Part shown: positions 11,131-23,638 of the stretch, in pieces
Layout: each line of letters begins with the position of its first letter
Numbering within the stretch: position 1 is the stretch's first letter
Assembly (NCBI GenBank): GCA_001464795.1
Contig: LNEB01000001.1
Coordinates: 1 to 57,923 of the forward strand
Source of the DNA: Bdellovibrionales bacterium Ga0074139
GTDB lineage: Bacteria > Bdellovibrionota > Bdellovibrionia > Bdellovibrionales > Bdellovibrionaceae
DNA length: 57,923 bases
Direction of reading: 5' to 3'
Position numbers and translations under genes: made by a program
The notes under the pieces: generated by a model
Told to the model about the DNA's origin: nothing
Databases searched by the model: none
The model's input: only the letters and a program-made list of their open reading frames with translations

Positions 11131-11152
11131 CAAAGAAGATTATTTCTTTGCT
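11129..11152. terminator. Candidate bidirectional terminator between convergent genes
   Basis: Perfect 9-bp inverted repeat AGCAAAGAA (11129-11137) / TTCTTTGCT (11144-11152) with a 6-nt loop. It covers the 3' ends of the converging genes ending at 11130 (+) and 11140 (-). On the minus strand the stem is followed by ATTTTCTAATT, a modest U-rich tail that would end the long Glt-like operon. The stem is AT-rich, so strength is uncertain. Confidence 0.4.
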
Positions 11153-11781
11153 TCTGCTAAATCATTAAACTGCTTAAAGATCTTTTCCTGTTTGACTATT
11201 TCCTTTGACCATCTGGATACTTCACCGTCGTAGCCCACTTTTTTATTTTTCCATTCTTTTTCTTGGGCGTTAACGGTTTTAAGGCGTTCTGCTACTTGCT
11301 TTTCTTGTTCTTTCAAAGCAGCTGCACGTTGTTCCCACACTTTTCTTTCTTCTGTGGCCTGGGTCAGCTGCACTTTATAGCTTTCGAGATTTGTGTTTCT
11401 TTTTAGTTTATTTTCTTCTAATTTTGCTATCATGGCTTGAAGATCTTTAATCTTTTTATCATCAGCTAAAATTTGCGTCTCTTCTGTTTTGATAAGCTTT
11501 TGAACTTCAGCTTCACTTTTTTGAATTTTTGTTAAGCTCGAAGAGTTATCTTTTAATTGTGCAGCCACTTGTTTTTTTTGCTCTTCGACCTGTGACTTTG
11601 CTTTATTTACTTCTACAATATTAGCAGAAACAATTTTAAGATTATTTTTATACTCTTCCAAATTGGCTTTGGCATTGTCCAGATTGGCTTTTAATTTATC
11701 AAGTCCTGACTTAGCTGTGCTTTGAGAAAATGCAAAACTTGAAATCAAGATAAGGCTGGCTGTTAAAAGTGTTTTTTTCAT
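11140..11781 (-). CDS. Periplasmic coiled-coil protein, last gene of the Glt-like operon
   Basis: After a signal peptide (KKTLLTASLILISSFAFSQ, residues 2-20) nearly the whole protein is heptad-patterned: K-, E-, Q- and A-rich helices with 'LKANLDNAKANLEEYKNNL' and 'EVQKLIKTEETQ' type repeats and no cysteines. It should form a long periplasmic coiled coil. The ORF runs 16 codons further upstream, but the ATG at 11781 has AAAGGA about 9 bp ahead and begins the signal peptide. It lies 23 bp downstream of the TPR gene, whose own C-terminal part is also coiled coil. A scaffolding role across the periplasm is inferred from its shape and operon position. Confidence 0.75.
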   Translation of the reverse strand: MKKTLLTASLILISSFAFSQSTAKSGLDKLKANLDNAKANLEEYKNNLKIVSANIVEVNKAKSQVEEQKKQVAAQLKDNSSSLTKIQKSEAEVQKLIKTEETQILADDKKIKDLQAMIAKLEENKLKRNTNLESYKVQLTQATEERKVWEQRAAALKEQEKQVAERLKTVNAQEKEWKNKKVGYDGEVSRWSKEIVKQEKIFKQFNDLAEAKK

Positions 11782-11804
11782 GGCAAATTCCTTTATTAAA
11801 AGCA

Positions 11805-13850
11805 TTAATTTTTTTCTTCCGGAGGACAAGCACTTTTTAATGAAGAACGAAAGTGTCCAATTTCATCTTCCCATATTTCACCTTTGAAGCTCCACTTCAT
11901 GGCTTTGGCTTTTTCAACCTGTAGTTTTTCACCTTTTTCTTGGGTGACTTCGCCGCTAGCCGTTTGAAAGCGGATGTGCTCGCCTGCGCCAGAATAAATT
12001 TCGTACTGCAGAACCTCATTTTGGTCTAAGAGTTCTTTTAAGTCAGTGGTCATTTTAGTGAAGCGCTTTTTTAAGGTTTCTGAAGCTGCTTTTCTGAGTA
12101 CTAATTTTTCTTTATCAAGCCTAACAAACGCACCATCACGAATGGTTTTTACTTGATTACGTGCACGGTTGGTATTGGCAGACTCGTATTTAAGAGCAGA
12201 TAATTGAACCACAAGTTTTTCTTCTTCTTGCTTTAAAAGATCTTTATTAGCTTTAGGATCATTTTGTTTTTTTCGTGTTTCAGATATTTTTTTATCTGTT
12301 TCATCAATCAACTTCAGTAGATCTTTTTCACGCTGAATCAGGTTCAGTGTGACCTGGTTAAAGCTTGAGATCTCGTCTTCGTAGCTGTTCATGTTCCTTT
12401 GAATATTGACATACGAAGGATGCTTGGCCCATTCCACAATCACAGATCTTGGAACTCCGTCCACATCTTTCAAATTGGGATTTTGTAACCAGGCCCTAAC
12501 TGTATCATAGAACTCAGAAGCTTCTTTTCTGGCTTTTAAATAATTGTCCATTCGACCGTAGATAGGAGCGTATTTGCGACCTAAATTTTGTAATGAGCTA
12601 GCAGCATCTCCGAACTGGCATAAATTTAAATAAGCCACTGTGCGAACCACATAGGATTCAGCATTGTAGGCATTTTTAAAAAAGTCTGTGTGAAGAGGAA
12701 ACATATTTCCAGCGGCCCCTTCAAAGTCTTTGTTTAATATTTGTGTCCAAGCTTGCTCGACCATGGCTTGCATCCAGAAAGCATGGGACTTGTCCACTTC
12801 CAAGTAGGCGTTGAATGCCTCTTTAAATTTATTTTTTTGAAAATAAATTCTTGCTAATGTAATACCTGCCACCGAGCGAACAGGGCTTGATTTGTCAATA
12901 ACTGTTAGAATTTGCTCGAATATTTTTTCAGCTCGGTCCACTTGGCCTTGTCGGTATTGAAACAAGGCTTGAATCAATAATGAATCGGCATAGTATTTTG
13001 ATTTCTGGTCAATTAAAGCAATGGCATCTTCCACTTGTCCAAGATTACCTTGTTCAAGGTAGTATTTAGCGCGAAAGAAATTGTAGGCATCGTTTTTAGA
13101 GACATCCACTTCATTTTGCAAAACCAGCGGTTCTATATCTTTGATGTCAGCATAGTCTAAGATTTCTATATTTTTTGATAGCTCACTGGAAGCTTGTTTT
13201 TTAAGCCCAGCATCACTGGCGTTTTTAGAAACGTCCAGCATTGCATTGCGAAACTCTTTTGGAAGTTTTAAATTTCTTGCGGCATCGCCGTAAAAGTATT
13301 GAGCTTCTTGTTTAAGATCTTTATCTTTTAAAAGCTCTGAAAAAATCGCAAAGGACATTTCATAATTTTTGTGAAATTCAAGAAATATTTGCGCTTCAAT
13401 CATTTTGAATTCATTGGAAGAAAAGACTCGGATATCTTTCAACTGAGGGTCTGGATTTTTAAATTCAGGCTCTGCCACAACCTGCAGAACTTTAATATCA
13501 GGAACTTTGGCAATTTGTGCAGCTGAGAAAATAATCTGGGCTGGTTTAAAAATTTCAGCTTGTGTTGGTTTGGGGAGAATGACATCTGCAAGACTAGGAG
13601 CTTTCACAACACCTGAAAATTTTTGAGTAGGCAAGGGGAGCTGAGCCAAGTTCACGGTTTGAAAACTAACGGATCTTTCAGAACCCACTTTGAGTTTTGG
13701 AATGGGTTTATCAGGTACAAAGTCAAAGGTGGGAACACCTGAAGATTTCATCTTCAGGCCACTTGATTTTTGAGCCGCACTAGTGATTGTTAAATCACTA
13801 GCGAAGATCATACTTGGTGTTAGAATCAATAGCAGTGTCAGTTTTGTCAT
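11805..13850 (-). CDS. Periplasmic TPR and coiled-coil protein (Glt-like)
   Basis: Signal peptide at residues 1-17 ('TKLTLLLILTPSMIFA'), then a proline-rich linker to about residue 130. TPR-type helix pairs follow (for example 'DSLLIQALFQYRQGQVDRAEKIFEQIL' and 'ARIYFQKNKFKEAFNAYLEVDKSHAFW'), and a coiled coil occupies roughly residues 480-600. The C-terminus 'GEIWEDEIGHFRSSLKSACPP' is distinctive. About 681 residues. Start chosen at 13850, with AGGA 7 bp upstream; the stop of the beta-barrel gene is 8 bp away. In Myxococcus, Glt gliding complexes contain periplasmic and outer-membrane TPR proteins next to beta-barrels. This gene occupies that position, but I cannot match it to one Glt letter. 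Confidence 0.75.
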   Translation of the reverse strand: MTKLTLLLILTPSMIFASDLTITSAAQKSSGLKMKSSGVPTFDFVPDKPIPKLKVGSERSVSFQTVNLAQLPLPTQKFSGVVKAPSLADVILPKPTQAEIFKPAQIIFSAAQIAKVPDIKVLQVVAEPEFKNPDPQLKDIRVFSSNEFKMIEAQIFLEFHKNYEMSFAIFSELLKDKDLKQEAQYFYGDAARNLKLPKEFRNAMLDVSKNASDAGLKKQASSELSKNIEILDYADIKDIEPLVLQNEVDVSKNDAYNFFRAKYYLEQGNLGQVEDAIALIDQKSKYYADSLLIQALFQYRQGQVDRAEKIFEQILTVIDKSSPVRSVAGITLARIYFQKNKFKEAFNAYLEVDKSHAFWMQAMVEQAWTQILNKDFEGAAGNMFPLHTDFFKNAYNAESYVVRTVAYLNLCQFGDAASSLQNLGRKYAPIYGRMDNYLKARKEASEFYDTVRAWLQNPNLKDVDGVPRSVIVEWAKHPSYVNIQRNMNSYEDEISSFNQVTLNLIQREKDLLKLIDETDKKISETRKKQNDPKANKDLLKQEEEKLVVQLSALKYESANTNRARNQVKTIRDGAFVRLDKEKLVLRKAASETLKKRFTKMTTDLKELLDQNEVLQYEIYSGAGEHIRFQTASGEVTQEKGEKLQVEKAKAMKWSFKGEIWEDEIGHFRSSLKSACPPEEKN

Positions 13851-13858
13851 TTTATATC

Positions 13859-14614
13859 CTACTTGAACCAATCAAAGACTGTAAAACCAATGAATAAAGC
13901 TGTATCGTTGATCATTTTAGTTCCTGCTTTTGTTCCGGTCTGAGAGGTATAGGAAATTTGATCTTGGCTTGAAAAGCTGTTGGTGAAATCCACTCGAATG
14001 GCCATGTTTTCACGGAAATAAAACTGCTGCATGATTCCGATGGTGTAGCCTAAGCTTGAGCCTTTTTCGGAAGTTTCAGTGTAATTAGGTTGAGGTGTTG
14101 TCGAGTAAGGATTTTCGTAGCTAACTTGTTGTAGTCCTAATGTAAATCCCATATCAAAGTGTATAATCTTTTTATCAAACAAAGACATTTTGGCGTATAT
14201 AGGTGTCCAGATAACATTGAAACCCAATTTGCTTTTAAGCTCGTTAGCCTTGGGGCCTCCTCCACGGTCAAGAATATCTTTAAACGCGCGACTCTTATCA
14301 AAGCTTGTCATTAAATAATTAGCCTCAACACCCCAAGACTCATTAAAAAAATATCCGCCACTGGCTCCTAAATATGTACCCGAGTAGTAAGGATCATTAA
14401 TAGAAACTCCATAATGTAGGGTTCCAAAAAATCTTTGTTTTTTTGCAAATGATCGATTTTGAACAACACTAAAATCATCGTCTTTAGCTGTCCAGTATTT
14501 TTGCTCAAGAGCTTGTACATCAAGCTTGTCACTTCCAGCTTTGGGTGCTGTGGTTTGAGCAAAACTGATTTGTGTTGTTAATAGCAAGGCTACTAATGCA
14601 ATGGGTGTTTTCAT
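13859..14614 (-). CDS. Outer-membrane beta-barrel protein (GltA/GltB-like)
   Basis: Signal peptide (residues 2-20, 'KTPIALVALLLTTQISFAQ'), a short acidic linker, then alternating amphipathic strands separated by short turns. Examples are 'FGTLHYGVSINDPYYSGTYLGASGGYFFNESWGVEANYLM' and 'MAIRVDFTNSF'. It ends in 'FIGFTVFDWFK', an aromatic terminal strand as in outer-membrane barrels. The pattern resembles the myxobacterial 'OMP beta-barrel' domain family that includes GltA/GltB. About 251 residues. Start at 14614 is supported by GAGGA just upstream; the longer ORF reading is rejected. It lies between the FHA/TonB-like gene and the TPR gene, as expected for a trans-envelope complex. Confidence 0.78.
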   Translation of the reverse strand: MKTPIALVALLLTTQISFAQTTAPKAGSDKLDVQALEQKYWTAKDDDFSVVQNRSFAKKQRFFGTLHYGVSINDPYYSGTYLGASGGYFFNESWGVEANYLMTSFDKSRAFKDILDRGGGPKANELKSKLGFNVIWTPIYAKMSLFDKKIIHFDMGFTLGLQQVSYENPYSTTPQPNYTETSEKGSSLGYTIGIMQQFYFRENMAIRVDFTNSFSSQDQISYTSQTGTKAGTKMINDTALFIGFTVFDWFK

Positions 14615-14639
14615 ATTGTCCTCGTCCTTTTCTGCAGTA

Positions 14640-16064
14640 TTAATTCGTGCTCTTAAACAGGAAAGGGTAGGTGACAATCACCTTCGTTCCACCGTTCGGA
14701 GCAGGAAATGTCCATTTGGCTACACGGTTCAATATACATCCCTCGACCGTTGCGTCCTTCATGGTTGTTTCTGTAATATTTTGTGTTTCAACGGAACCGG
14801 ATCCGCTGATGGTAAACTTAACGGAAACTTTTCCGCCTAAATCTTTTTTAGCTGTCAGCTGTCTTTCGTAACAGGCTAAGATGTGACCGATTTGTCTTTT
14901 GATGTGCTCTGCGATGATGTCTCGGTCCAAACCACCACTGACTTCTGCTTCGTCTTCGATTAGACCCACGCCGCCGTCACCGGTTTTTCCTGCTTGCAGT
15001 CCACCCATACCAGAAAGAGATTTTCCACCGGCTTTACCAGCAGTGCTGACCGCTAAACCTAGACCATTGCCTTCAGAGCTCCAGTCCTTACCTTCTTTAT
15101 TACTTGAACCAAGGGCTGCGAGTGCACGACCTGTAGGGCCACTGCCAGCTTTAAGTCCGTTTTGTACGATGACGTTTTTGCTAGCGGCTTCACCAGCTGA
15201 AACTTTTCCAACTAAAGAAGAAATTCGGCCCACATTTAAATTTTTAAGTAAGCCAGAAACTTTTCCAGCACCACCAGCTTGCTTTTGTACGTCTTTTTTC
15301 TCGATTTCAACAGCCTGAGCTTTAGCTACTTTTCGTTTTTTTAAACTTTCCATATCAACAACGATTCTTTGAGCTTCTTTGGGCTGCCAAGTGGTCATCT
15401 CTTGTTTATGTTTAGGCAGAACCATTGCCATGAGTATAAGAAATAATGAAACACTTAATGCAATGACAATTGGTTTTTTAGTATCTTCATCAACCATGTT
15501 TTTGGTAGAAAAATGATTAAGTGCTGAGATATCATCGGTTTTAATTGTACGTTGTTGAACTGTGTAGTTTTCAAATTTTTCATAAATCCATGTTGCTGAA
15601 TTTTTGCTAGGAATTTGAATAACAGGGTGAACCTCAGAGAGTTTAAAATTTTTGCCTAATTCAACAATTTCGCTACGAATAAAGCGGGTGTTGTAGGTTA
15701 ACATGAACAACTGAGCTTCATGTTTGCCATTTTGTGAGGAGCTGAAATTTTTAAAAGATTCTAAATGATTATAATCTTTTTCTACCACTTCGAAGCTTAA
15801 AGTGCTTTTTTCAAAGTCCAGTTTTGATTTTTCATTTAGTTTTGTAGTTTTATGTTGATTGATATTAGATGGATTCAAATCCACATAGGACCAAAAATTG
15901 TCTGTTAACTGAAATACACCTTCGAAAGGAGTTAACGAATCATCAATCGAATTTAAATGACTGATTCTAGCCGTTCCAAAAGTACATGGGCTTTGACTAG
16001 GTTTGACTTTCCAAACCTTCACGACGCCATCGTTTCTTTTTTGTTTTACTATCAAAGTTTTCAT
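14640..16064 (-). CDS. FHA-like / single-TM / TonB-like (AgmX/PglI C-terminal) energy-transducing protein, GltG-like
   Basis: Three parts can be read. Residues 1-100 look like a divergent FHA domain: 'CTFGTARISHLNSIDDSLTPFEGVFQLTDNFWSYVDLNPSNIN', with the usual Arg/Ser core largely lost. One transmembrane helix follows at about 197-217 ('IVIALSVSLFLILMAMVLP'). A long Gly/Ala/Ser/Lys-rich periplasmic stretch (about 270-365) leads to a C-terminal TonB-like domain (about 375-474) with 'HILACYERQL', 'GKVSVKFTISGSG' and 'VAKWTFPAPNG', the AgmX/PglI signature. In Myxococcus, GltG and GltJ of this build couple the AglRQS motor to the outer membrane. A GAGGGG site precedes the ATG. Cytoplasmic partner unknown. 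Confidence 0.82.
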   Translation of the reverse strand: MKTLIVKQKRNDGVVKVWKVKPSQSPCTFGTARISHLNSIDDSLTPFEGVFQLTDNFWSYVDLNPSNINQHKTTKLNEKSKLDFEKSTLSFEVVEKDYNHLESFKNFSSSQNGKHEAQLFMLTYNTRFIRSEIVELGKNFKLSEVHPVIQIPSKNSATWIYEKFENYTVQQRTIKTDDISALNHFSTKNMVDEDTKKPIVIALSVSLFLILMAMVLPKHKQEMTTWQPKEAQRIVVDMESLKKRKVAKAQAVEIEKKDVQKQAGGAGKVSGLLKNLNVGRISSLVGKVSAGEAASKNVIVQNGLKAGSGPTGRALAALGSSNKEGKDWSSEGNGLGLAVSTAGKAGGKSLSGMGGLQAGKTGDGGVGLIEDEAEVSGGLDRDIIAEHIKRQIGHILACYERQLTAKKDLGGKVSVKFTISGSGSVETQNITETTMKDATVEGCILNRVAKWTFPAPNGGTKVIVTYPFLFKSTN

Positions 16065-16078
16065 ACGCCCCTCAAAAA

Positions 16079-16330
16079 TTATTTCACGTAAAAGCTGGCA
16101 TCACGGATTCGCTCGTCCATATCTTTTTTAACATCATAAAGAGGTAAAAATTTAAGACCTCTTTTTTGCACAAGATAGGCACCGTCTGGATTTCGAATGG
16201 TTCCCTTCACACTCATTTCAGCGAAGTTGACCTCTTGAACTTTTCGAATAGATCTTTTCTTAGATTGTGCAAATCCGAAAGAACTCGATAGTAAAAGGGC
16301 AAAAGCAATTAAAACAAATTTAGAAGTCAT
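16079..16330 (-). CDS. Small secreted protein of the Glt-like operon
   Basis: An 83-residue protein with a clear signal peptide (residues 1-21, 'TSKFVLIAFALLLSSSFGFAQ') and a short basic mature part. That part contains 'VNFAEMSVKGTIRNPDGAYLVQKRGLKFLPLYDVKKDMDERI'. No family recognised. The mature region looks like a small folded strand-turn motif and could be a periplasmic accessory of its neighbours. AGAGG lies 7 bp before the ATG. Its 139-bp upstream gap is one of the longest in the operon and holds the 15-bp repeat at 16403-16417, so it may start a second transcript (this gene, the FHA/TonB-like gene, the barrel and the TPR gene). Confidence 0.72.
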   Translation of the reverse strand: MTSKFVLIAFALLLSSSFGFAQSKKRSIRKVQEVNFAEMSVKGTIRNPDGAYLVQKRGLKFLPLYDVKKDMDERIRDASFYVK

Positions 16331-16402
16331 TTTCTTTACCTCTAGATTAGCTTACGGCAGAATTAAGCACAGACTCGAGGGAAAAACAGCCTGTGGATCA
16401 CA

Positions 16403-16417
16403 ATGAGGCAGGCTAAG
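16403..16417 (-). repeat. 15-bp repeat, copy A, upstream of the small secreted-protein gene
   Basis: Minus-strand CTTAGCCTGCCTCAT, identical to the copy at 23783-23797 ahead of the first gene of the operon. It lies 72 bp before the start codon at 16330. Directly upstream on the minus strand is CATAAT, which could be a -10 box, placing this copy at the transcription start. Confidence 0.6.
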
Positions 16418-16469
16418 ATTATGATATTTTTGAATTTTATTGAAAGTGTTAAACTTTTGATCGATTTTT

Positions 16470-19400
16470 TTAGCGCTTAAGACTATTAAGATACTCAAGC
16501 TTTTTTTCAATCCACATTTTTTGACTGCTATCACTTGTTAGACTGAGTGCTTTTTTGTAGTTTTCTTGCGCTAGAACAAGCTCAGGCTTCGAGCTTTCAA
16601 AAATTTTGGCAATAAATAAGGAACCTTCCAAAGTATTTTTAAGCGTTGATTTTTGAATGGATTTTACAGCCCCATCAAAATCACCTGTACGATTTTGAGC
16701 CTCAGCGATCAAAAGTGCCAACTGATGTTTTTCCTTGGTTTCCTTTGGTAAAGAATCCAGAAGATTTAATGCGGGAGTCCAGTCACCAAGATTGGCTAAG
16801 TGTGCTGCTTGCAAAGCTTGAAGATCTGGAGTTTTAAAATTCTTTGAATTGTAAAGACTTAATAATTCACCTGAAACAGAACTCAAATCTTCAATTCGAG
16901 ATAGTGTTCTTACTTTTTGAAATTGGAAAACTTCATTTTTAGGATCAAGTTTTAATGCCTTTTCAATCAGCCAGTAAGATTTTGTTAGCAATTTTGATCT
17001 TTCACTGGATAGTGACAGATAGAAGAGGCCCCAAGCTCTATTGGTGGGCGTATCCGTTAAAGCTAGGGCCTCATTTTCAAAAACTTGATTATTACTATAA
17101 TAACAGTTTCCGATCCATTTTGCGAGCTCTGCTTGTGAAATTTCCTTTTTGTTTTGTTTTGATTCACATTTGTTTTTTGATTTTATAATGGGATCAGGGT
17201 CAGTGTCTATCCATGAATCAGGTATAAACATATCAATGTTGATGGGTTTAATTCCTTCAAAGGCAATAGGTGCTGAATCTTGAGGCTTTAAGTCCAGCCA
17301 GCTGATTTTACCCAGTCCTGTGGACATTGTTTTAGATGCAACCTGAGATAGAATTTTTTTGTTATCTTCAAGTTTTTCTTGAATTGGAATTGTGATTTTA
17401 GCTATTTCGCTTCGCAGAGTTTTTTGATCCTCTTCTGATATTGTAGCGGGTAGGGGCATGGTATTCAAAGATGAAATATAGTGATTGTAACAACGATCAA
17501 GACCTTCCAATATTTCCACAGTCATTTTTGGATCTTGGGTCATTTTTGAAGCTGAATTGTAAGCGGTTAATGCTTTATCTAGTTTTTCAGTTTTAATATT
17601 AAGCACGATAGAAAGCCGGTCCTCTTGGCTTACCTTTACACTTTGACTTAAAAACTCTTGTTCAAGAATTCGGGCCTGAATGATTCTGGCCGGAGCTCTG
17701 TCATTCATGCTTGAATCTCTGGACATGGCTTTTGTGGCCGTTTGAAAGGCCTGTGAATATTGTTTTTTGTTGAATTGATCTTGAGCCAAATTGGTCCAAA
17801 ATTGAGTCGCATAGGGTTCTTGCCCAAGATCCACTAAGCTTTGAATGTATTTTTTAAATTCTGGGGATTGCTTTTCACTCTCTTCGAATGAATTCATATA
17901 CTGGCTTTGTAGTTGCTTTTTTTCTTCGCCTTTAGAGTTTTTCATTAAGTCTAAAATCATTTTTCGAGCTTCTGTTTTTTTGCCTTCCAGTAAATTCAGT
18001 TCAATTATAAGATCTTGAAGTTTTCGCAGATCTTTGGGGTTTGTTTTTACGATCTTTTGATAAGCGCTTAAAGCGTCTGGAATTCGGCCAATGGCAAAGT
18101 AAGAATTAGCACTTTCTCGAATGGCATCTAAGGATCTTTTGTCCTCTGGGTACAGGCTAGCAAATTCATTGGAAAGATCAGCGCCTTTCAATGTAAAACC
18201 ATCAGCATAGGCTAGTGACAGGGCCTGCCAAAGGGCTTCTTTAGAAAGTCCACTTTTCGGATGTGTTTTTCTAAAATCTAAAAGTTGTTCTGAAACTTGT
18301 ATTTTAGATTGTGTGTTTAAATTTCTTTGAACTTCAGAATAGTGAGCTTCTTCAAAAATTTTCTGTAAGTTCTCGGTCCTGGTAGGGACCTTAGATTCTT
18401 TTAAGAATTGAGAGGCTTGAATTTTTAAATTCGTAAAATCTTTTCTGAAGTTGAGAATATCAAGCATGAGATCCTGGGCTTTAAGCTTAATTTCTTGAGA
18501 TTTGCTTTGGGATAACAAGGGTTTTAAATAGTCTTCGGCGGCTTTGTCTTGATTGGATTCGTACTCAGAAATTGCCACTTGCAATTGCACAGGTAGGCTA
18601 TGAACACCTTGAGGGTGTTTTTGAATATATAGAAGTGATAGCTCTTTTATCTTTTTATGCTTTTCAGGAGTCTTTTTAATTTCAATGCTTTTTTGCATAC
18701 TAAAAAGGGCTGCGTAATTAGAATCATGGGTGATAGCTGCATCTGTAGAAGTTTTTCCCACAAGTTCGTACTCGGAGCTGGCCTCATCGTATTGTTTGAG
18801 TTGAAATAAAAGCTCTGCTAATGCAAAACGAGTTTTAAAATCTGGCTTTTCGGGATCATCACCCTTTAAAACCAGTCTTAGTGATTTCTCAGTTAGTTTT
18901 GAAAACTCTGTATGAGCTTTATTTTTAGTCCAGATGTCCCACCATTTTTTAGCGATCTCCAAACTCGTTTTTCTAAAATCTGATTGGCAAGTTTCTGTGG
19001 CAAATGCAGGCTCTAGTTTAGCTTTCCAAATGGAATTGGTTTCGCAAAGCTTCGAGGCTTTTTCTAGATTCAGCAAAACCTCATCCCGCTTTTTTAAGTT
19101 CTCATTGGCCGTAACAAGTGTCATGTAGGACTTAACTAGATAAGGATGGTTTTTTTCTTTATCAATGAATTCATTCAGAAAGATATGAATCTCTTTTTCC
19201 CGGTTGTAGGCTGAATACAGCTTTGCCAGTGAACTCATGGATTCACCAAGTTCTTCATTAGAAGTGATTTTCTTAAAAAAGCTGTAAACTTCATTGGGCT
19301 TGATGGTATCACCCACAAACAAAACAATATCTCGTAAAGCTTCTTTTCTTAAATTATAAGATCTGTTTTGCTCTAGCTTTAAAGGATTTTTTTCAATCAC

Positions 19401-20120
19401 TTCGACTAATTTTTGAATGGCTTCATCAGAAAGTTTAAGGTTATAAAGTGTCCATGCTAATTTATAAGAGCCGTAGGAATAAACACGGCTATTAGGAAAG
19501 CGTTCAATATTTTCAAAACTTGTTTTAGCTTCACGAAATCGGCCTTGTTCATACAGTAATTCACCAAGAGCAATCAGAGCATCAGGAATAAGACTAGAAT
19601 TGGGATACAAATCCAAAAGTTTTTTGTATAAAACTTCTGATCTTTTCATTTCATTTAATAATTGAGACGCAAAAGCATTATTAAATAGAACAGCATCCAT
19701 TTGATCAAATTTGGGAAATCGTTTTTCAATGTCGCTATAGGTTGCTGATGCTTTTCGAATCCAGTCTTTACCTTTTTGCGGAGGGATCGGCACCGATGAC
19801 AGCTGTTTGGTTTTTGCATCCTGAAACAAATCAAAAAATCGACCTGTCTTTGATTTTCGCATATAAAGTTCAGCTAAACGGTAAAGTAAATCAGGCTCCT
19901 GAGCCGTTCCTTTGTTTCGTTTAAGCAAAGATTGAAGGCTAACAAGGGCTTTATCCTCGGCTCTTGCAATCATGAGCTCTGAGGTCACTTGCTTTTTTTC
20001 ATTAATGGATTCATCAGTGCTGTTGATTTTGAGCTCTGGCAGTAGACCTTTTTTATCGTCAGACTGGGCAAAAGTAGAACTGCTAATAAAGAATGTAAGA
20101 AGTAGGGTGGTTTTCGTCAT
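16470..20120 (-). CDS. Giant periplasmic TPR protein (GltD/AgmU-like)
   Basis: A 1216-residue protein with a signal peptide (residues 1-18, 'TKTTLLLTFFISSSTFAQ'). After it come many TPR-type helical repeats through most of the length, such as 'PDLLYRLAELYMRKSK', 'PDALIALGELLYEQGRFREAKTSFENIERFPNS', 'SYGSYKLAWTLYNLKLSDEAIQKLVEVI' and 'ANSYFAIGRIPDALSAYQKIVKTNPKD'. No enzymatic motif was seen. The Myxococcus gliding complex includes a giant periplasmic TPR protein (GltD/AgmU), and the operon position behind TolQ-TolR-TolR supports that comparison. A general Tol-associated TPR protein is the alternative. The gene follows the second TolR gene after 27 bp. Structural scaffold role is inferred. Confidence 0.78.
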   Translation of the reverse strand: MTKTTLLLTFFISSSTFAQSDDKKGLLPELKINSTDESINEKKQVTSELMIARAEDKALVSLQSLLKRNKGTAQEPDLLYRLAELYMRKSKTGRFFDLFQDAKTKQLSSVPIPPQKGKDWIRKASATYSDIEKRFPKFDQMDAVLFNNAFASQLLNEMKRSEVLYKKLLDLYPNSSLIPDALIALGELLYEQGRFREAKTSFENIERFPNSRVYSYGSYKLAWTLYNLKLSDEAIQKLVEVIEKNPLKLEQNRSYNLRKEALRDIVLFVGDTIKPNEVYSFFKKITSNEELGESMSSLAKLYSAYNREKEIHIFLNEFIDKEKNHPYLVKSYMTLVTANENLKKRDEVLLNLEKASKLCETNSIWKAKLEPAFATETCQSDFRKTSLEIAKKWWDIWTKNKAHTEFSKLTEKSLRLVLKGDDPEKPDFKTRFALAELLFQLKQYDEASSEYELVGKTSTDAAITHDSNYAALFSMQKSIEIKKTPEKHKKIKELSLLYIQKHPQGVHSLPVQLQVAISEYESNQDKAAEDYLKPLLSQSKSQEIKLKAQDLMLDILNFRKDFTNLKIQASQFLKESKVPTRTENLQKIFEEAHYSEVQRNLNTQSKIQVSEQLLDFRKTHPKSGLSKEALWQALSLAYADGFTLKGADLSNEFASLYPEDKRSLDAIRESANSYFAIGRIPDALSAYQKIVKTNPKDLRKLQDLIIELNLLEGKKTEARKMILDLMKNSKGEEKKQLQSQYMNSFEESEKQSPEFKKYIQSLVDLGQEPYATQFWTNLAQDQFNKKQYSQAFQTATKAMSRDSSMNDRAPARIIQARILEQEFLSQSVKVSQEDRLSIVLNIKTEKLDKALTAYNSASKMTQDPKMTVEILEGLDRCYNHYISSLNTMPLPATISEEDQKTLRSEIAKITIPIQEKLEDNKKILSQVASKTMSTGLGKISWLDLKPQDSAPIAFEGIKPINIDMFIPDSWIDTDPDPIIKSKNKCESKQNKKEISQAELAKWIGNCYYSNNQVFENEALALTDTPTNRAWGLFYLSLSSERSKLLTKSYWLIEKALKLDPKNEVFQFQKVRTLSRIEDLSSVSGELLSLYNSKNFKTPDLQALQAAHLANLGDWTPALNLLDSLPKETKEKHQLALLIAEAQNRTGDFDGAVKSIQKSTLKNTLEGSLFIAKIFESSKPELVLAQENYKKALSLTSDSSQKMWIEKKLEYLNSLKR

Positions 20121-20147
20121 ATTGAAAGCAGTCCTTATCTATGTCAT

Positions 20148-20642
20148 TTAATTTCCTAAGACTGTTACAAGCTTGACTTGGGGAAATCCTGCCATACTAG
20201 CCGTGTACATAATTTTTCTTAAAGTTTGGTAGGGAAGGTCTTGATCGGCTTGTAACATAATTTGATTTTTTTCATCTTTTTTAATATTAGGATCTTGTGC
20301 AATGATTTGTAATTCTTTAAAAAGTGGCTGAATAAAGTTTGTGTCTTGAGGGTCAATGTCGGTAGATGCAATATCTCGGTTGTTAATAGTGGCCACTAAT
20401 TTTTCTCCCACCTTAATACCTGTTTTACTGACTGAAATTTGCAAAGACATAATAGGATTTTTATAACTATTGGATGTTGGTAGTGCTAAGTCTGCATCAG
20501 TTTTGATTTCTACTGATGTAGCGGCAAAATTTTGTAGTAAAAATACAAGCATCAGCGTGAACATGTCAGTCATTGATGTGATGTTTAATGTGAAAGACGA
20601 ATTGTTTTTAATATTCAGGTCTTTTTTTAATTTTCGTCCCAT
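20148..20642 (-). CDS. ExbD/TolR-family protein with intact proton-site aspartate (AglQ/AglS-like)
   Basis: Bitopic inner-membrane protein: basic N-terminus, one transmembrane helix (about residues 19-40), periplasmic domain to residue 164. The helix start 'LNITSMTDMFTLMLVFLLQNF' aligns with the ExbD/TolR signature and keeps the conserved aspartate (D26), which carries the proton in the stator pore. The periplasmic part contains 'ISVSKTGIKVGEKLV' and 'LQADQDLPYQTLRKIMYTASMAGFPQVKLVTV', the typical TolR fold end. It starts 1 bp after the stop of the first TolR-like gene, so the two are translationally coupled. With the TolQ-like protein it should form a proton-driven motor. Confidence 0.88.
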   Translation of the reverse strand: MGRKLKKDLNIKNNSSFTLNITSMTDMFTLMLVFLLQNFAATSVEIKTDADLALPTSNSYKNPIMSLQISVSKTGIKVGEKLVATINNRDIASTDIDPQDTNFIQPLFKELQIIAQDPNIKKDEKNQIMLQADQDLPYQTLRKIMYTASMAGFPQVKLVTVLGN

Positions 20643-20643
20643 C

Positions 20644-21177
20644 TTAACCTTCCATCATATTCACAAAGATAATTTCGGGAAACATGTAATCAGTCATAAT
20701 TTCTTGACCTGATTTTTCATCTTTAACAGGAAATCGAACATCAGAGCTTCGACTGCGACGAGCCTCATCCATCACGTGTACTACTTCTTTGTAAGTCACT
20801 TTTGCATCAGGTGAGAAATCAATTTTAAAAATATCGGGATTTTTTTTCTTTATTTCTTGAAGCAATCCATGAAGTTTGGGTCTATCAATTTTTGCCTCTA
20901 AAGGGTCAACAGTAAAGGTTGATTTAGCACCGTTGATGTCGATAGTAATTGTGACCTTACGATTACCATCAACCTCTAAAAGAAGATTTTTTTTATTCTC
21001 ATCAACTTGTTTTTGAATAGCTTGTGTCACGGCTTGAGGTAGCTCAGTGTCGATGACCATGGCTTGCATGAAGGCACTTGAAAGCAACAAGACAGGTATG
21101 AGCTTCATCATCACAGCAAGGAGTGACGCAAGATCAACTTCAAAATCTGATGTTCTTTGTATATTGAGTTTCTTCAT
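20644..21177 (-). CDS. ExbD/TolR-family protein lacking the conserved membrane aspartate
   Basis: Same plan as its neighbour: cytoplasmic N-terminus, one transmembrane helix (about residues 14-38), periplasmic domain ending in 'VTYKEVVHVMDEARR' and 'FPEIIFVNMMEG'. Aligning the helix start 'FEVDLASLLAVMMKLIPVLLL' with the family puts alanine (A21) where the proton-carrying aspartate belongs. An acidic residue is found six positions earlier (D15), and Lys25 and Pro28 sit within the helix. It may be a structural partner in a heteromeric TolR pair; Myxococcus also uses two TolR-like proteins (AglQ, AglS). It lies 16 bp after the TolQ-like gene. Function inferred from family and position. Confidence 0.82.
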   Translation of the reverse strand: MKKLNIQRTSDFEVDLASLLAVMMKLIPVLLLSSAFMQAMVIDTELPQAVTQAIQKQVDENKKNLLLEVDGNRKVTITIDINGAKSTFTVDPLEAKIDRPKLHGLLQEIKKKNPDIFKIDFSPDAKVTYKEVVHVMDEARRSRSSDVRFPVKDEKSGQEIMTDYMFPEIIFVNMMEG

Positions 21178-21193
21178 GCGTGCTCACACTTCT

Positions 21194-21910
21194 TTAAGAT
21201 ACTTTTGTGTTAGGAGAAGGAGGGGCTCCGGTGGATGAAACTTTTACGGGAGCATCCGGGAATATATTCGTGCGGTTCAAGGTTGGAATATGAGAGCCTG
21301 TTAAGATCTCAGTTAATTTTCCACATTTTTCCTGAAGCTGCTCAAGAAGTTCATTTTGTCTGGCAAATAAAAATGAGTAAGCGACCATGGCAGGAATCGC
21401 AACAGCTAAACCTAAGGCTGTCGTATAAAGAGAAACGGAAATACCAGTCGCAAGAAGTTGTTGCTTTGTAGCAGGATCGGCTTGAGCAACGGCTTGGAAG
21501 GAAAGAATCAATCCATAAATGGTACCTAATAGACCTAATTGTGTGGCCACGTTGGCGAGCATTGAAAGATAGTGAAGACGTCTTGTGTAAAGGGGCACAG
21601 CTTCGTTCAAAGCAATGTCATGGGATTGAAAAATTGTTTCATCATCCCGGTCCGCTTTTTCTAGAATTGTTTTAAAAGCTTTGGCCATGGGCTTTTTATC
21701 CATTTGGTTGCATACCACTATGGCTTCATCAATTTTTTTAGCAAGTATCAGGTTTTGGATTTTATTCATGAACTGATCGGCATCAATTCCATAGGAAATA
21801 TAAAGGGCCTTGGCTCGTTCAGCTACTAATGCAAATGAAACAACTCCGGTGATGAGAATCACCCATCCCATGAATCCAGCTTCTGTAATAAAACCTACAA
21901 ATCCGCCCAT
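21194..21910 (-). CDS. MotA/TolQ/ExbB-family proton-channel protein (AglR-like)
   Basis: Three-helix inner-membrane protein forming the pentameric ring around TolR/ExbD proteins. An N-terminal helix (residues 12-30) is followed by a cytoplasmic loop with 'ALYISYGIDADQFMNKIQNLI'. The conserved pair of helices contains 'LANVATQLGLLGTIYGLILSF' and 'GISVSLYTTALGLAVAIPAMVAYSFL', with the Thr and Gly/Pro pattern of the family. A disordered Pro/Ser tail ends the 238-residue protein. AGGAGG lies 4 bp ahead of the ATG, the strongest site in the operon, suggesting high expression. It is followed directly by two TolR-like genes, the AglR-Q-S order. Confidence 0.9.
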   Translation of the reverse strand: MGGFVGFITEAGFMGWVILITGVVSFALVAERAKALYISYGIDADQFMNKIQNLILAKKIDEAIVVCNQMDKKPMAKAFKTILEKADRDDETIFQSHDIALNEAVPLYTRRLHYLSMLANVATQLGLLGTIYGLILSFQAVAQADPATKQQLLATGISVSLYTTALGLAVAIPAMVAYSFLFARQNELLEQLQEKCGKLTEILTGSHIPTLNRTNIFPDAPVKVSSTGAPPSPNTKVS

Positions 21911-21943
21911 AATTCCTCCTCAAATTAGAATCATCAACTGTAA

Positions 21944-22516
21944 CTATGACTTGACCACTTTTGTAATCTGGTCGAGTCCATCTGGCTGCACTTGGAGAAA
22001 ACGTACGGCGTATTGCAAAGCAGATTTGGTATTTAACCTTTGTTTCGTAAAGTTTTTTCGGACAACCTGAGCCAAAACTTTAAAACCATTATGAAAAGTT
22101 GCACTTTCGTTGAAATGAATCACCACTTGGTCATCAGGTAGAAGCAGGGGGGTGTTGATCAGCACCAGGGCTCCATTTTCAGAAATGGATGTGCATTCAC
22201 CATCAAAGAAAACTGTCCCATTATGACCCAGGACTGGACTGCTGACATCTTTTCTAGCCGCTTCACGTTTTGAAAATTCATTTCTTAAAACTTCATTTTC
22301 ACGGATTAATAAAGCTAGGCGATCTTTTGAAAAGTCAGCACATTCGCCCAGCATTTGCCAAGCTTCTAAGTGCGGGGCCCAGACGTAATTGTAATCTTGG
22401 ATTTCGTGATTTTGGACCATACGAATCATCACTCCGTATTCGTAAGGTCCATATTGAGTTTCGCCTCTTAAGATGTACCAGTTCTTTAATTCTAAGTTTA
22501 CTTGTGAATAATTCAT
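21944..22516 (-). CDS. GYF_2-PilZ two-domain cytoplasmic protein
   Basis: No signal peptide or membrane segment. Residues 12-56 match the GYF_2 domain: 'WYILRGETQYGPYEYGVMIRMV...W.PHLEAWQML', a module that binds proline-rich peptides. After a helix (62-82) comes a PilZ domain with both c-di-GMP motifs: R84-x-x-x-R88, and S110-x-S112-x-x-G115 (Ser in place of Asp/Asn). The barrel ends at 'ALQYAVRFLQVQPDGLDQI'. The start at 22516 (third codon of the ORF) has GAGG upstream. In Myxococcus, GltJ carries a GYF domain that contacts cytosolic regulators. A GYF fused to PilZ inside this operon suggests c-di-GMP control of the motor, which is inference. Confidence 0.8.
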   Translation of the reverse strand: MNYSQVNLELKNWYILRGETQYGPYEYGVMIRMVQNHEIQDYNYVWAPHLEAWQMLGECADFSKDRLALLIRENEVLRNEFSKREAARKDVSSPVLGHNGTVFFDGECTSISENGALVLINTPLLLPDDQVVIHFNESATFHNGFKVLAQVVRKNFTKQRLNTKSALQYAVRFLQVQPDGLDQITKVVKS

Positions 22517-22534
22517 GCCCACCCTCTGATTGAA

Positions 22535-23638
22535 TTACAGTAATGTTTTAGGATCATATGTGATTGAGATACTTGAATCAGCTGACAATGAAGTTGCGTA
22601 CTCGGGTGCAAAGCGAACAACATTAGTTGCTGCTTCATAAGCCCAAGTTGTACTTCCACTGGCAACAACCGCACCGTCAATTTTAACGACTATGGAATTA
22701 GCAATGGGCTCACGGTCCAATTCAAACACGGCAGCCGCAGTTAATACTGAATCTTTAATGTTTTGTAATACAGTGCTGAAGTTCGCACACAAGCTGTTTT
22801 TCGATCCACCCGTTGCATCGGCTAAAGCATCATATCGCTGTTGAATTTTCTGTGAAGAGTCACCTAAAGCAGCCAAGCAAGCAGCATCACGAATTGAGAT
22901 ATTACTCACTTGGTATTTGTCTCTTCTGTTTTCACTTGTGGCGCCAGTTAAAGTATCCAGCTGAGTCACATAGCTACTAACAGGAATTAAATTAGGATTC
23001 GTGTAGGATTCATTGAGGCTTGAGCTTGTTGATGAAAAATCATCTTCATCGCTTACGATAATAATCGATAAAAACGCTGCACTTCTGCGAAAGTCAGAAT
23101 TCGTTCCCAAATTCAAAGACCGCATCATGCTCGAAAAAGCTCTCTCATCGCCGTAACCCTGGGTTCCCACTCTAATATTAGTGGTAAAAACTGAATTGAG
23201 TGACAATGTGTCTTTGTTCATCACAAAAACTCCACTGTCTGTATTTGCTCCCTGGGGATTATAGCTTGGGTTAAACTGAGCAGCTCGGTTACCTGTTCTC
23301 CAACGGGGGCTATAGAAAGCGTTACCGTTGTACTGTGTGTACCAAGTGTCTGAAGTGGTCACAGCCATTCTAAAATCGTAACGTAAAGTAACGAAGTCTT
23401 GGATGAATGAGTTAAAGTTAGAGGCTAAGTTATTTTGTGATGAATTCATGGATCCTGAATTATCGACCACCCATAAAATATCAATAGGACGGGGCTGAGT
23501 ACTTAAAGAAACTTTGAAGTTCTCTTCAGTGGCTGCAATGGATATTCCTCCACCGGACTTATCACATGCTGTGAGTCCCATAAGTAGAGTCGAGAATAAA
23601 GCGATCTTGCTTAATTGTCTCTTCATTGAGTTATCCAT
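22535..23638 (-). CDS. VWA-domain lipoprotein (CglB-like), first gene of the Glt-like operon
   Basis: Lipoprotein signal with a good lipobox L-T-A-C, modified cysteine C25, and aspartate at +2. A von Willebrand A domain follows, with the metal site D59-x-S61-x-S63 ('VVDNSGSM') and 'IIIVSDEDDFS' for the later MIDAS aspartate. A C-terminal beta-rich segment starts around 'EPIANSIVVKIDGAVV'. The ORF reads 30 codons further, but the ATG at 23638 has GGGAGG 6 bp ahead. In Myxococcus, CglB is a VWA lipoprotein adhesin of gliding focal adhesions, so this gene beside motor genes is a strong parallel. The +2 Asp would favour inner-membrane retention by E. coli rules, an oddity for an adhesin. Confidence 0.83.
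   Translation of the reverse strand: MDNSMKRQLSKIALFSTLLMGLTACDKSGGGISIAATEENFKVSLSTQPRPIDILWVVDNSGSMNSSQNNLASNFNSFIQDFVTLRYDFRMAVTTSDTWYTQYNGNAFYSPRWRTGNRAAQFNPSYNPQGANTDSGVFVMNKDTLSLNSVFTTNIRVGTQGYGDERAFSSMMRSLNLGTNSDFRRSAAFLSIIIVSDEDDFSSTSSSLNESYTNPNLIPVSSYVTQLDTLTGATSENRRDKYQVSNISIRDAACLAALGDSSQKIQQRYDALADATGGSKNSLCANFSTVLQNIKDSVLTAAAVFELDREPIANSIVVKIDGAVVASGSTTWAYEAATNVVRFAPEYATSLSADSSISITYDPKTLL

Follow-up and report, generated by a model that had tools for sequence, protein, structure and literature searches.

A probable Agl-Glt-type operon of a Bdellovibrionales bacterium encodes a TolR protein without the transmembrane aspartate

We analyzed a 57,923-nucleotide (nt) stretch of DNA from Bdellovibrionales bacterium Ga0074139 (contig LNEB01000001.1, positions 1 to 57,923; here called the window). 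This part of the 2.9-Mb genome harbors an eleven-gene cluster that includes tolQ and two tolR genes, tolR1 and tolR2. We are confident that this operon encodes a trans-envelope machine of the Agl-Glt type because of the clade of its TolQ protein, its matches to Glt, Cgl, and OMP_myx_plus profiles, and its conserved gene order. TolR1, the protein in the AglQ position, naturally lacks the acid whose loss stops its relative in Myxococcus xanthus. The cluster itself is not new, being already in the literature, where it has long been called a gliding operon. What appears to be new is a TolR without the motor Asp in a conserved Agl-type motor, together with a second site that is coupled to it. Our literature search, which left subscription journals mostly outside, found no description of either.

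TolR1 lacks the motor aspartate and has a coupled aspartate six residues before it

ExbD, TolR, MotB, AglQ, and AglS each have one proton-binding transmembrane Asp. Both TolR proteins of the window match the Pfam family ExbD (E values of 1.1e-15 for TolR1 and 4.9e-14 for TolR2), and the folded part of a predicted TolR1 model resembles the ExbD periplasmic domain. An earlier note on this DNA, made by a model from the sequence alone, had recorded both tolR genes and overlooked that one of them is missing the motor Asp. In TolR1 the site is occupied by Ala21, with Asp15 six residues before it (-6) and Lys25 four residues after it (+4). The motor genes and the codons concerned are as follows.

21194-21910, minus strand: TolQ/AglR-type motor protein (MotA_ExbB match, tree); orthologue of Bd1481 (aglR)
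20644-21177, minus strand: TolR1, in the AglQ position (ExbD match); orthologue of Bd1480; without the transmembrane Asp
20148-20642, minus strand: TolR2, in the AglS position (ExbD match); transmembrane Asp26 retained
21115-21117, minus strand: TolR1 codon 21, Ala at the motor-Asp site (alignment)
21133-21135, minus strand: TolR1 codon 15, Asp at the -6 site (orthologue table, column scan)
20565-20567, minus strand: TolR2 codon 26, the retained motor Asp (orthologue table)

When TolR-like proteins were pooled, 209 had the Asp and 64 did not, and 63 of those 64 were orthologues of the window TolR1. The remaining one is the first TolR of an Agl-like pair in Paraliomyxa miuraensis (locus L209, G369:C117, 2040-2615). 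It has Asn at the site and no Asp at -6, which apparently reflects an independent loss in the Myxococcota.

Our final table held 115 TolR1 orthologues, 62 from the bacterium's own family and 53 from other families of the order or class. All 62 family members lacked the motor Asp (57 Ala and 5 Ser), and every one had Asp at -6 and Lys at +4. Outside the family, 24 TolR1 proteins lacked the motor Asp; Asp was at -6 in 24/24 and Lys at +4 in 0/24. The other 29 retained it and had Asn or Ser at -6 without exception (29/29). Overall, the -6 Asp was present in 86/86 of the Asp-less TolR1 proteins and 0/29 of the Asp-bearing ones. TolR2 had its Asp in 112/112 resolved orthologues. We also scanned all columns of TolQ, TolR1, and TolR2. 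Among conserved columns, only the motor site and the -6 site of TolR1 fully split the two Asp states; one variable N-terminal TolR2 column likewise showed no overlap between them. Within the family, the gain of Lys at +4 in TolR1 accompanies the loss of a Lys at +11 in TolR2 (Gln in 60/60, versus Lys in 50/52 outside), and this paired change is a single event on the tree.

The missing Asp is not an artifact of alignment or start-site choice, because the flanking motif (LAPLLAVMVKLVP versus LAPMMDMFVTIIP) aligns free of gaps and all 62 genomes show the same state. We also rejected the idea that TolR1 is a degraded pseudogene. It is full length, and 25 columns are invariant among 11 divergent orthologues. 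TolR1 is intact and conserved and is therefore under selection.

The history of the loss was traced on a concatenated tree built without TolR1. The Asp state needs three changes on this tree, more than a single clean loss would take. One clade of Asp losers (without locus L143) was not rejected by the approximately unbiased test (P = 0.35), so one loss with one regain and two to three losses are indistinguishable. Independent pairs agree with the coupling between the motor site and the -6 site, although there are only two such pairs and a sign test is thus powerless.

Myxococcota loci with a TolQ of the type of Bd0828 from Bdellovibrio bacteriovorus HD100 (L210 to L239) have the Asp in both TolR proteins. 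In the Myxococcota loci that we checked, it is at residues 25 to 29 of the first TolR, consistent with D28 of AglQ. The aglQ D28N mutation of M. xanthus abolishes proton conductance and paralyzes both gliding and sporulation (PMC3858216). Therefore, the window motor, if it runs, must run differently.

TolQ belongs with the Agl-type motors

TolQ of the window matches the Pfam family MotA_ExbB (6.7e-26) and keeps both pore threonines (ExbB T148 and T181). The earlier note had singled out a grouping with Tol-Pal or ExbBD as the outcome that would speak against an Agl-type identity. We therefore built a tree of 69 TolQ homologues, including those of E. coli; the search was short and some branches are long, but neither should affect the main split. 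The tree separated the Tol-Pal/ExbB proteins from all Agl-type proteins, with a support of 99 for either side, and the window TolQ was among the Agl-type motors (Myxococcota AglR-like proteins, Bd0828 of HD100, and others). Its orthologues formed one group (support of 98) apart from the AglR/Bd0828 group. Separate Tol/Exb-type TolQ homologues are also encoded in the same genome. The window TolQ is 71% identical to its HD100 orthologue.

We asked if loss of ExbB Glu176, which is Val in the window TolQ, was a partner change to the missing Asp. This was rejected, because the Glu is also absent from orthologues with two Asp residues and present in two family members; it is thus not linked to the Asp state.

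The other operon proteins are mostly Glt and Cgl relatives

All eleven open reading frames from 11140 to 23638, which the earlier note had described as consecutive minus-strand genes, were confirmed. They are co-directional, in the order vwa, gyf-pilZ, tolQ, tolR1, tolR2, gltD, gltF, gltG, barrel, gltC, coiled-coil. Intergenic spacing is -38 to +33 nt, with the sole exception of 139 nt between gltD and gltF. The best-placed starts are at 11781 (coiled coil), 13850 (GltC), 14614 (barrel), and 23638 (VWA). Plus-strand genes converge on the operon from below. A terminator-like hairpin (11152-11129) is 3' of the last operon gene, and such hairpins were no commoner than in shuffled sequence. The genes other than those of the motor are as follows.

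22535-23638, minus strand: VWA/MIDAS lipoprotein, CglD-like and Bdellovibrio MIDAS-adhesin-like; orthologue of HD100 Bd1483
21944-22522, minus strand: GYF_2-PilZ protein (Pfam, above cutoff); orthologue of Bd1482
16470-20120, minus strand: giant periplasmic TPR protein of 1,216 amino acids, putative GltD relative (TPR families, BLASTP, synteny)
16079-16330, minus strand: small secreted protein of 83 amino acids, putative GltF/CglF relative (NF033764, below cutoff; position conserved)
14640-16064, minus strand: GltG relative with an FHA-like cytoplasmic domain, one transmembrane segment, and a TonB-like C terminus (NF033760, NF033768)
13859-14614, minus strand: outer membrane beta-barrel of the myxobacterial OMP_myx_plus family (TIGR04565, above cutoff)
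11805-13850, minus strand: periplasmic TPR/coiled-coil protein, GltC relative (NF033756)
11140-11781, minus strand: secreted coiled-coil protein, last gene of the operon (position conserved in 19/20 family loci)

Domains were assigned with Pfam and NCBIfam profiles on the window proteins and on their HD100 counterparts, which received the same family assignments. The VWA lipoprotein matched NF052240 (1.2e-16), CglD (1.1e-12), and CglB (4e-4), all beneath the curated cutoffs, and has an LTAC lipobox and a DNSGS MIDAS motif. By sequence search, the VWA proteins had no match in the PDB. The residue directly after the lipidated Cys is Asp (LTAC-D), and orthologues have Ser, Asn, Ala, Gln, Glu, or Asp there. 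In E. coli, Asp at this place would retain a lipoprotein in the inner membrane.

The GYF-PilZ protein matched GYF_2 (6.4e-9) and PilZ (2.4e-8) in Pfam. It retains the RxxxR motif, and its second cyclic di-GMP motif is degenerate (SxSxxG). Ser in place of Asp/Asn in that motif is common to many family members, including Bd1482 of HD100. From these motifs, ligand binding by the PilZ domain is uncertain.

TPR families were detected in both large proteins. The giant one aligned to the TPR protein of another Glt cluster in the same genome, on contig C14 (BLASTP, 7e-34), and we assign it as a probable GltD relative because of its size, place, and TPR content. The GltC relative matched NF033756 (4.8e-24 for the window, 6.1e-30 for HD100), and the small secreted protein matched NF033764 (CglF) below the cutoff (8.7e-5 and 1.4e-4, respectively). 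The GltG relative matched NF033760 (GltG; 6.8e-37) and TonB_C (5.6e-4), and its AgmX/PglI TonB-like C terminus (NF033768) was above cutoff. A predicted GltG model of poor quality (mean predicted local distance difference test score of 53) gave fold matches to FHA and TonB C-terminal domains, which is only suggestive of an FHA domain. The barrel matched TIGR04565 (4.4e-25). The domain statements of the earlier note (MotA_ExbB, two ExbD, GYF_2, PilZ, TonB_C, and TPR) are thus borne out, and so is its Agl-Glt assignment, with matches to the GltC, GltG, GltF/CglF, OMP_myx_plus barrel, and CglD/MIDAS VWA profiles. Its idea of a distinct parts list stands for the GYF-PilZ protein and the last coiled coil. 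It does not stand for the giant TPR, TPR/coiled-coil, and small secreted proteins, which are GltD, GltC, and GltF relatives.

For the last coiled-coil protein, Pfam and NCBIfam gave only generic coiled-coil matches, and no M. xanthus counterpart was identified. No gene of the operon encodes GltE, a TPR lipoprotein that is part of the seven-gene Agl-Glt core complex (Luciano et al. 2011), but a GltE-like gene is in another cluster of the same genome (L022:14512-15384, on C14; 1.2e-10). Profiles also found no GltI, GltJ, or GltK within the operon, with no separate NCBIfam search for GltI and GltK elsewhere in the genome; the GltJ profile matched the GltG relative through the shared C-terminal domain only (3.4e-4).

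The operon is conserved in its family and orthologous to Bd1473-1483 of HD100

A synteny check, proposed in the earlier note, found the full eleven-gene order in 16 of the 20 other family genomes that we fetched. This recurrence of the gene set is far beyond chance. In the incomplete loci, vwa was missing from the stretch in two, pilZ in one, and everything after gltD in one. The last of these is L108 (G030:C6), where gltF, gltG, barrel, gltC, and coiled-coil do not adjoin the cluster. Of 66 family genomes, 63 gave a match in a TolR1 search; each had a single strong orthologue, set apart by a wide score gap from weaker paralogues. Other families of the order or class have the same core order, often with pilZ before vwa, or with no vwa. 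In every resolved locus, tolR1 and tolR2 adjoin tolQ. GltD is a single gene in the window, with a similar size in most of its own family; it is split over two genes (about 1,000 and 300 amino acids) in most other families of the order or class (L140 to L159 and L174 to L177). A related cluster in another family of the phylum (f27; L161 and L164) has vwa ahead of tolQ and a divergent pilZ gene; both of its TolR proteins have the Asp, and it is sister to the window cluster in the TolQ tree.

The genome of HD100 has four Agl TolQ genes, at 0.40, 0.79, 1.40, and 2.28 Mb. We take these to be in Bd0411-0421, Bd0828-0838, Bd1473-1483, and Bd2368-2377, of which the third corresponds to the window cluster; the published assignments are VWA/MIDAS for Bd1483, PilZ for Bd1482, aglR for Bd1481, and aglQ for Bd1480. 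Judged by sequence and gene order, the window operon is the orthologue of Bd1473-1483.

The genome of the window has three clusters with a GltG-type C terminus above cutoff: the window cluster and those on C14 and C8. The C14 cluster is the orthologue of Bd0828-0838. In this type of cluster (L022:7325-11518 on C14; L192:6753-9631 in HD100), the TolQ-TolR-TolR genes run into a gene for a lipopolysaccharide-transport-like periplasmic protein, followed in L022 by genes for an LptB-like ABC protein and RpoN. From this layout, the Bd0828-type Agl motor may be wired into a lipopolysaccharide-transport operon. The C8 cluster (L021:15679-18526) adjoins genes for a PilZ protein and a VWA lipoprotein, so the PilZ-VWA pairing recurs; a purK-like gene lies between, and a purE-like gene is next to the PilZ and VWA genes. 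Eleven stretches on C3, C8, C10, and C13 (L013 to L020), making up about seven genes, match the Bdellovibrio MIDAS-adhesin family, the best being C10:1572-2672 (2.3e-93).

Published data on the HD100 orthologue

Bd1473-1483 is upregulated in host-independent growth and downregulated 30 min into predation (PMC2797640). Insertions in Bd1481 and Bd1483 weaken predation of thick biofilms but leave lawn halos unaffected (PMC2277423), and a Bd1483 deletion mutant invades prey as the wild type does (PMC11003981). Bd1480 is surface induced, dependent on Bd0367, a controller of gliding (PMC9140294), and Bd1482 has been proposed to receive the Bd0367 signal (PMC3271064). Proteomics ties two other HD100 clusters to the early bdelloplast and to exit (PMC12546842). 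Therefore, these expression and mutant data tie Bd1473-1483, of the four HD100 clusters, best to surface life outside prey. The Bdellovibrio gliding machinery is still termed unidentified (PMC13104615).

A model of the motor and its alternatives

The balance tips slightly toward a proton-driven machine of the Agl-Glt type with an asymmetric, one-Asp TolQ5-TolR1-TolR2 motor and with surface gliding as its output. We infer its heterodimer, one-Asp proton cycle, force path, and PilZ role. A TolQ pentamer would enclose one TolR1-TolR2 heterodimer, and protons would travel via the single Asp on TolR2, while TolR1 would shape the pore and the contact with peptidoglycan. GltG, the FHA-transmembrane-TonB protein, would relay motion to periplasmic GltC, GltD, GltF, and the coiled coil. 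From there, motion would reach the outer membrane barrel and the surface VWA-MIDAS lipoprotein, which would grip the substrate. The GYF-PilZ protein would tune the motor from the cytoplasmic side. The output would be slow gliding over surfaces or through biofilm and not prey entry as such.

Several points weigh against this model. The GltC, GltG, CglF, CglB, and CglD matches are far beneath NCBIfam equivalog cutoffs. The motor could be built with TolR2 homodimers, the function of the lost Asp might have passed to Asp15, and gliding may be the work of the three other HD100 Glt clusters.

The homodimer alternative deserves attention, although we consider it unlikely. TolR2 homodimers would form an ordinary two-Asp motor, and TolR1 would be an accessory (peptidoglycan anchor, plug, or assembly factor) beside the TolQ pentamer. 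This would suit a protein that has lost the catalytic residue, has a conserved C-terminal tail absent from TolR2, and has an ExbD-like periplasmic fold in the model. Also, homodimers are the rule for MotB, ExbD, and TolR, and the literature leaves open whether AglQ and AglS form hetero- or homodimers (PMC9389320). However, in M. xanthus a mutation in either aglQ or aglS abolishes sporulation, so both proteins are needed there (PMC3858216), and the strict adjacency of both tolR genes to tolQ does not favor an accessory role.

We give a slightly lower chance to a working machine that, like the Nfs spore-coat machine, serves to move or compact material on the surface or to remodel the envelope instead of driving gliding. 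In M. xanthus, spore-coat assembly is powered by a motor of this type (PMC3858216), and the presence of TolR1 in nearly all family genomes (63/66) may be more than a dedicated motility system would lead one to expect. Against this reading are the surface induction of Bd1480, which is tied to gliding control by Bd0367 (PMC9140294), and the biofilm phenotypes (PMC2277423).

Less likely still is that Asp15 of TolR1 binds the proton and makes a two-Asp motor with staggered acids. The perfect coupling between the two sites (86/86 versus 0/29) speaks for this, and no other conserved column of TolQ, TolR1, or TolR2 separates the groups as cleanly. However, the coupling is based on only two to three independent changes. 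In the ExbD motif, moreover, the transmembrane helix begins at a Pro, and the -6 site lies before it. By helical rise this site would be about 9 Å toward the cytoplasm and may be outside the pore.

Finally, a standard Tol-Pal or ExbBD-TonB system set among unrelated genes is very improbable and was rejected: the TolQ, TolR, and TonB domains are present, but the tree places TolQ outside Tol/Exb (support of 99), the operon has no TolA, TolB, Pal, or TonB-dependent receptor, its other genes match Glt profiles, and Tol/Exb-type TolQ homologues are encoded separately in the genome.

Returning to the asymmetric motor, we regard it as quite possible, if a little short of probable, that a large Bdellovibrionales lineage has a natural, obligately asymmetric 5:2 proton motor. 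TolR1 and TolR2 would be in a TolQ pentamer as a heterodimer with the proton-binding Asp on one chain only, the other acid would be shifted by six residues, and in the Bdellovibrio family an added Lys would be one turn away. In current rotary models of MotAB and ExbBD, the channel switches back and forth between two essential Asp residues, at 36 degrees per proton (PMC12215075). A permanently lost Asp in one TolR, with the Asp of the other always retained, bears on both this rotary model and the AglQ/AglS pairing; either a one-Asp motor works or one TolR has left the motor. Bd1480 belongs to a genetically tractable laboratory predator of bacteria and has served as an expression marker for gliding in Bdellovibrio.

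Comparison with known systems

Bd1473-1483 of HD100 (L093) matches the window operon in all eleven genes and in their order, including the TolR1 with Ala for Asp (Bd1480) and the GYF-PilZ protein (Bd1482). We found no difference of kind, and the sequences have diverged. The Agl-Glt system of M. xanthus (AglRQS, GltA-K, and CglB) shares the TolQ-TolR-TolR motor of the same clade, relatives of GltC, GltD, GltF, and GltG, a barrel, and a VWA lipoprotein. However, the window set is one compact operon without gltE, gltI, gltJ, or gltK, and its only additions are the GYF-PilZ protein and the last coiled coil. M. xanthus has the transmembrane Asp in both AglQ and AglS (PMC9389320), whereas the TolR in the AglQ position of the window lacks the Asp that is essential there. 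The Agl-Nfs spore-coat machine of M. xanthus uses a motor of this type to drive a Glt-like envelope complex (PMC3858216). It shares the AglRQS motor with gliding in that bacterium, and we liken it to the window machine by motor type. The E. coli TolQR-TolA and ExbBD-TonB systems have a proton channel and a TonB-type C terminus in common with the window machine, but their TolR and ExbD proteins are homodimeric, with an Asp in each chain, and their TolQ is of a separate clade.

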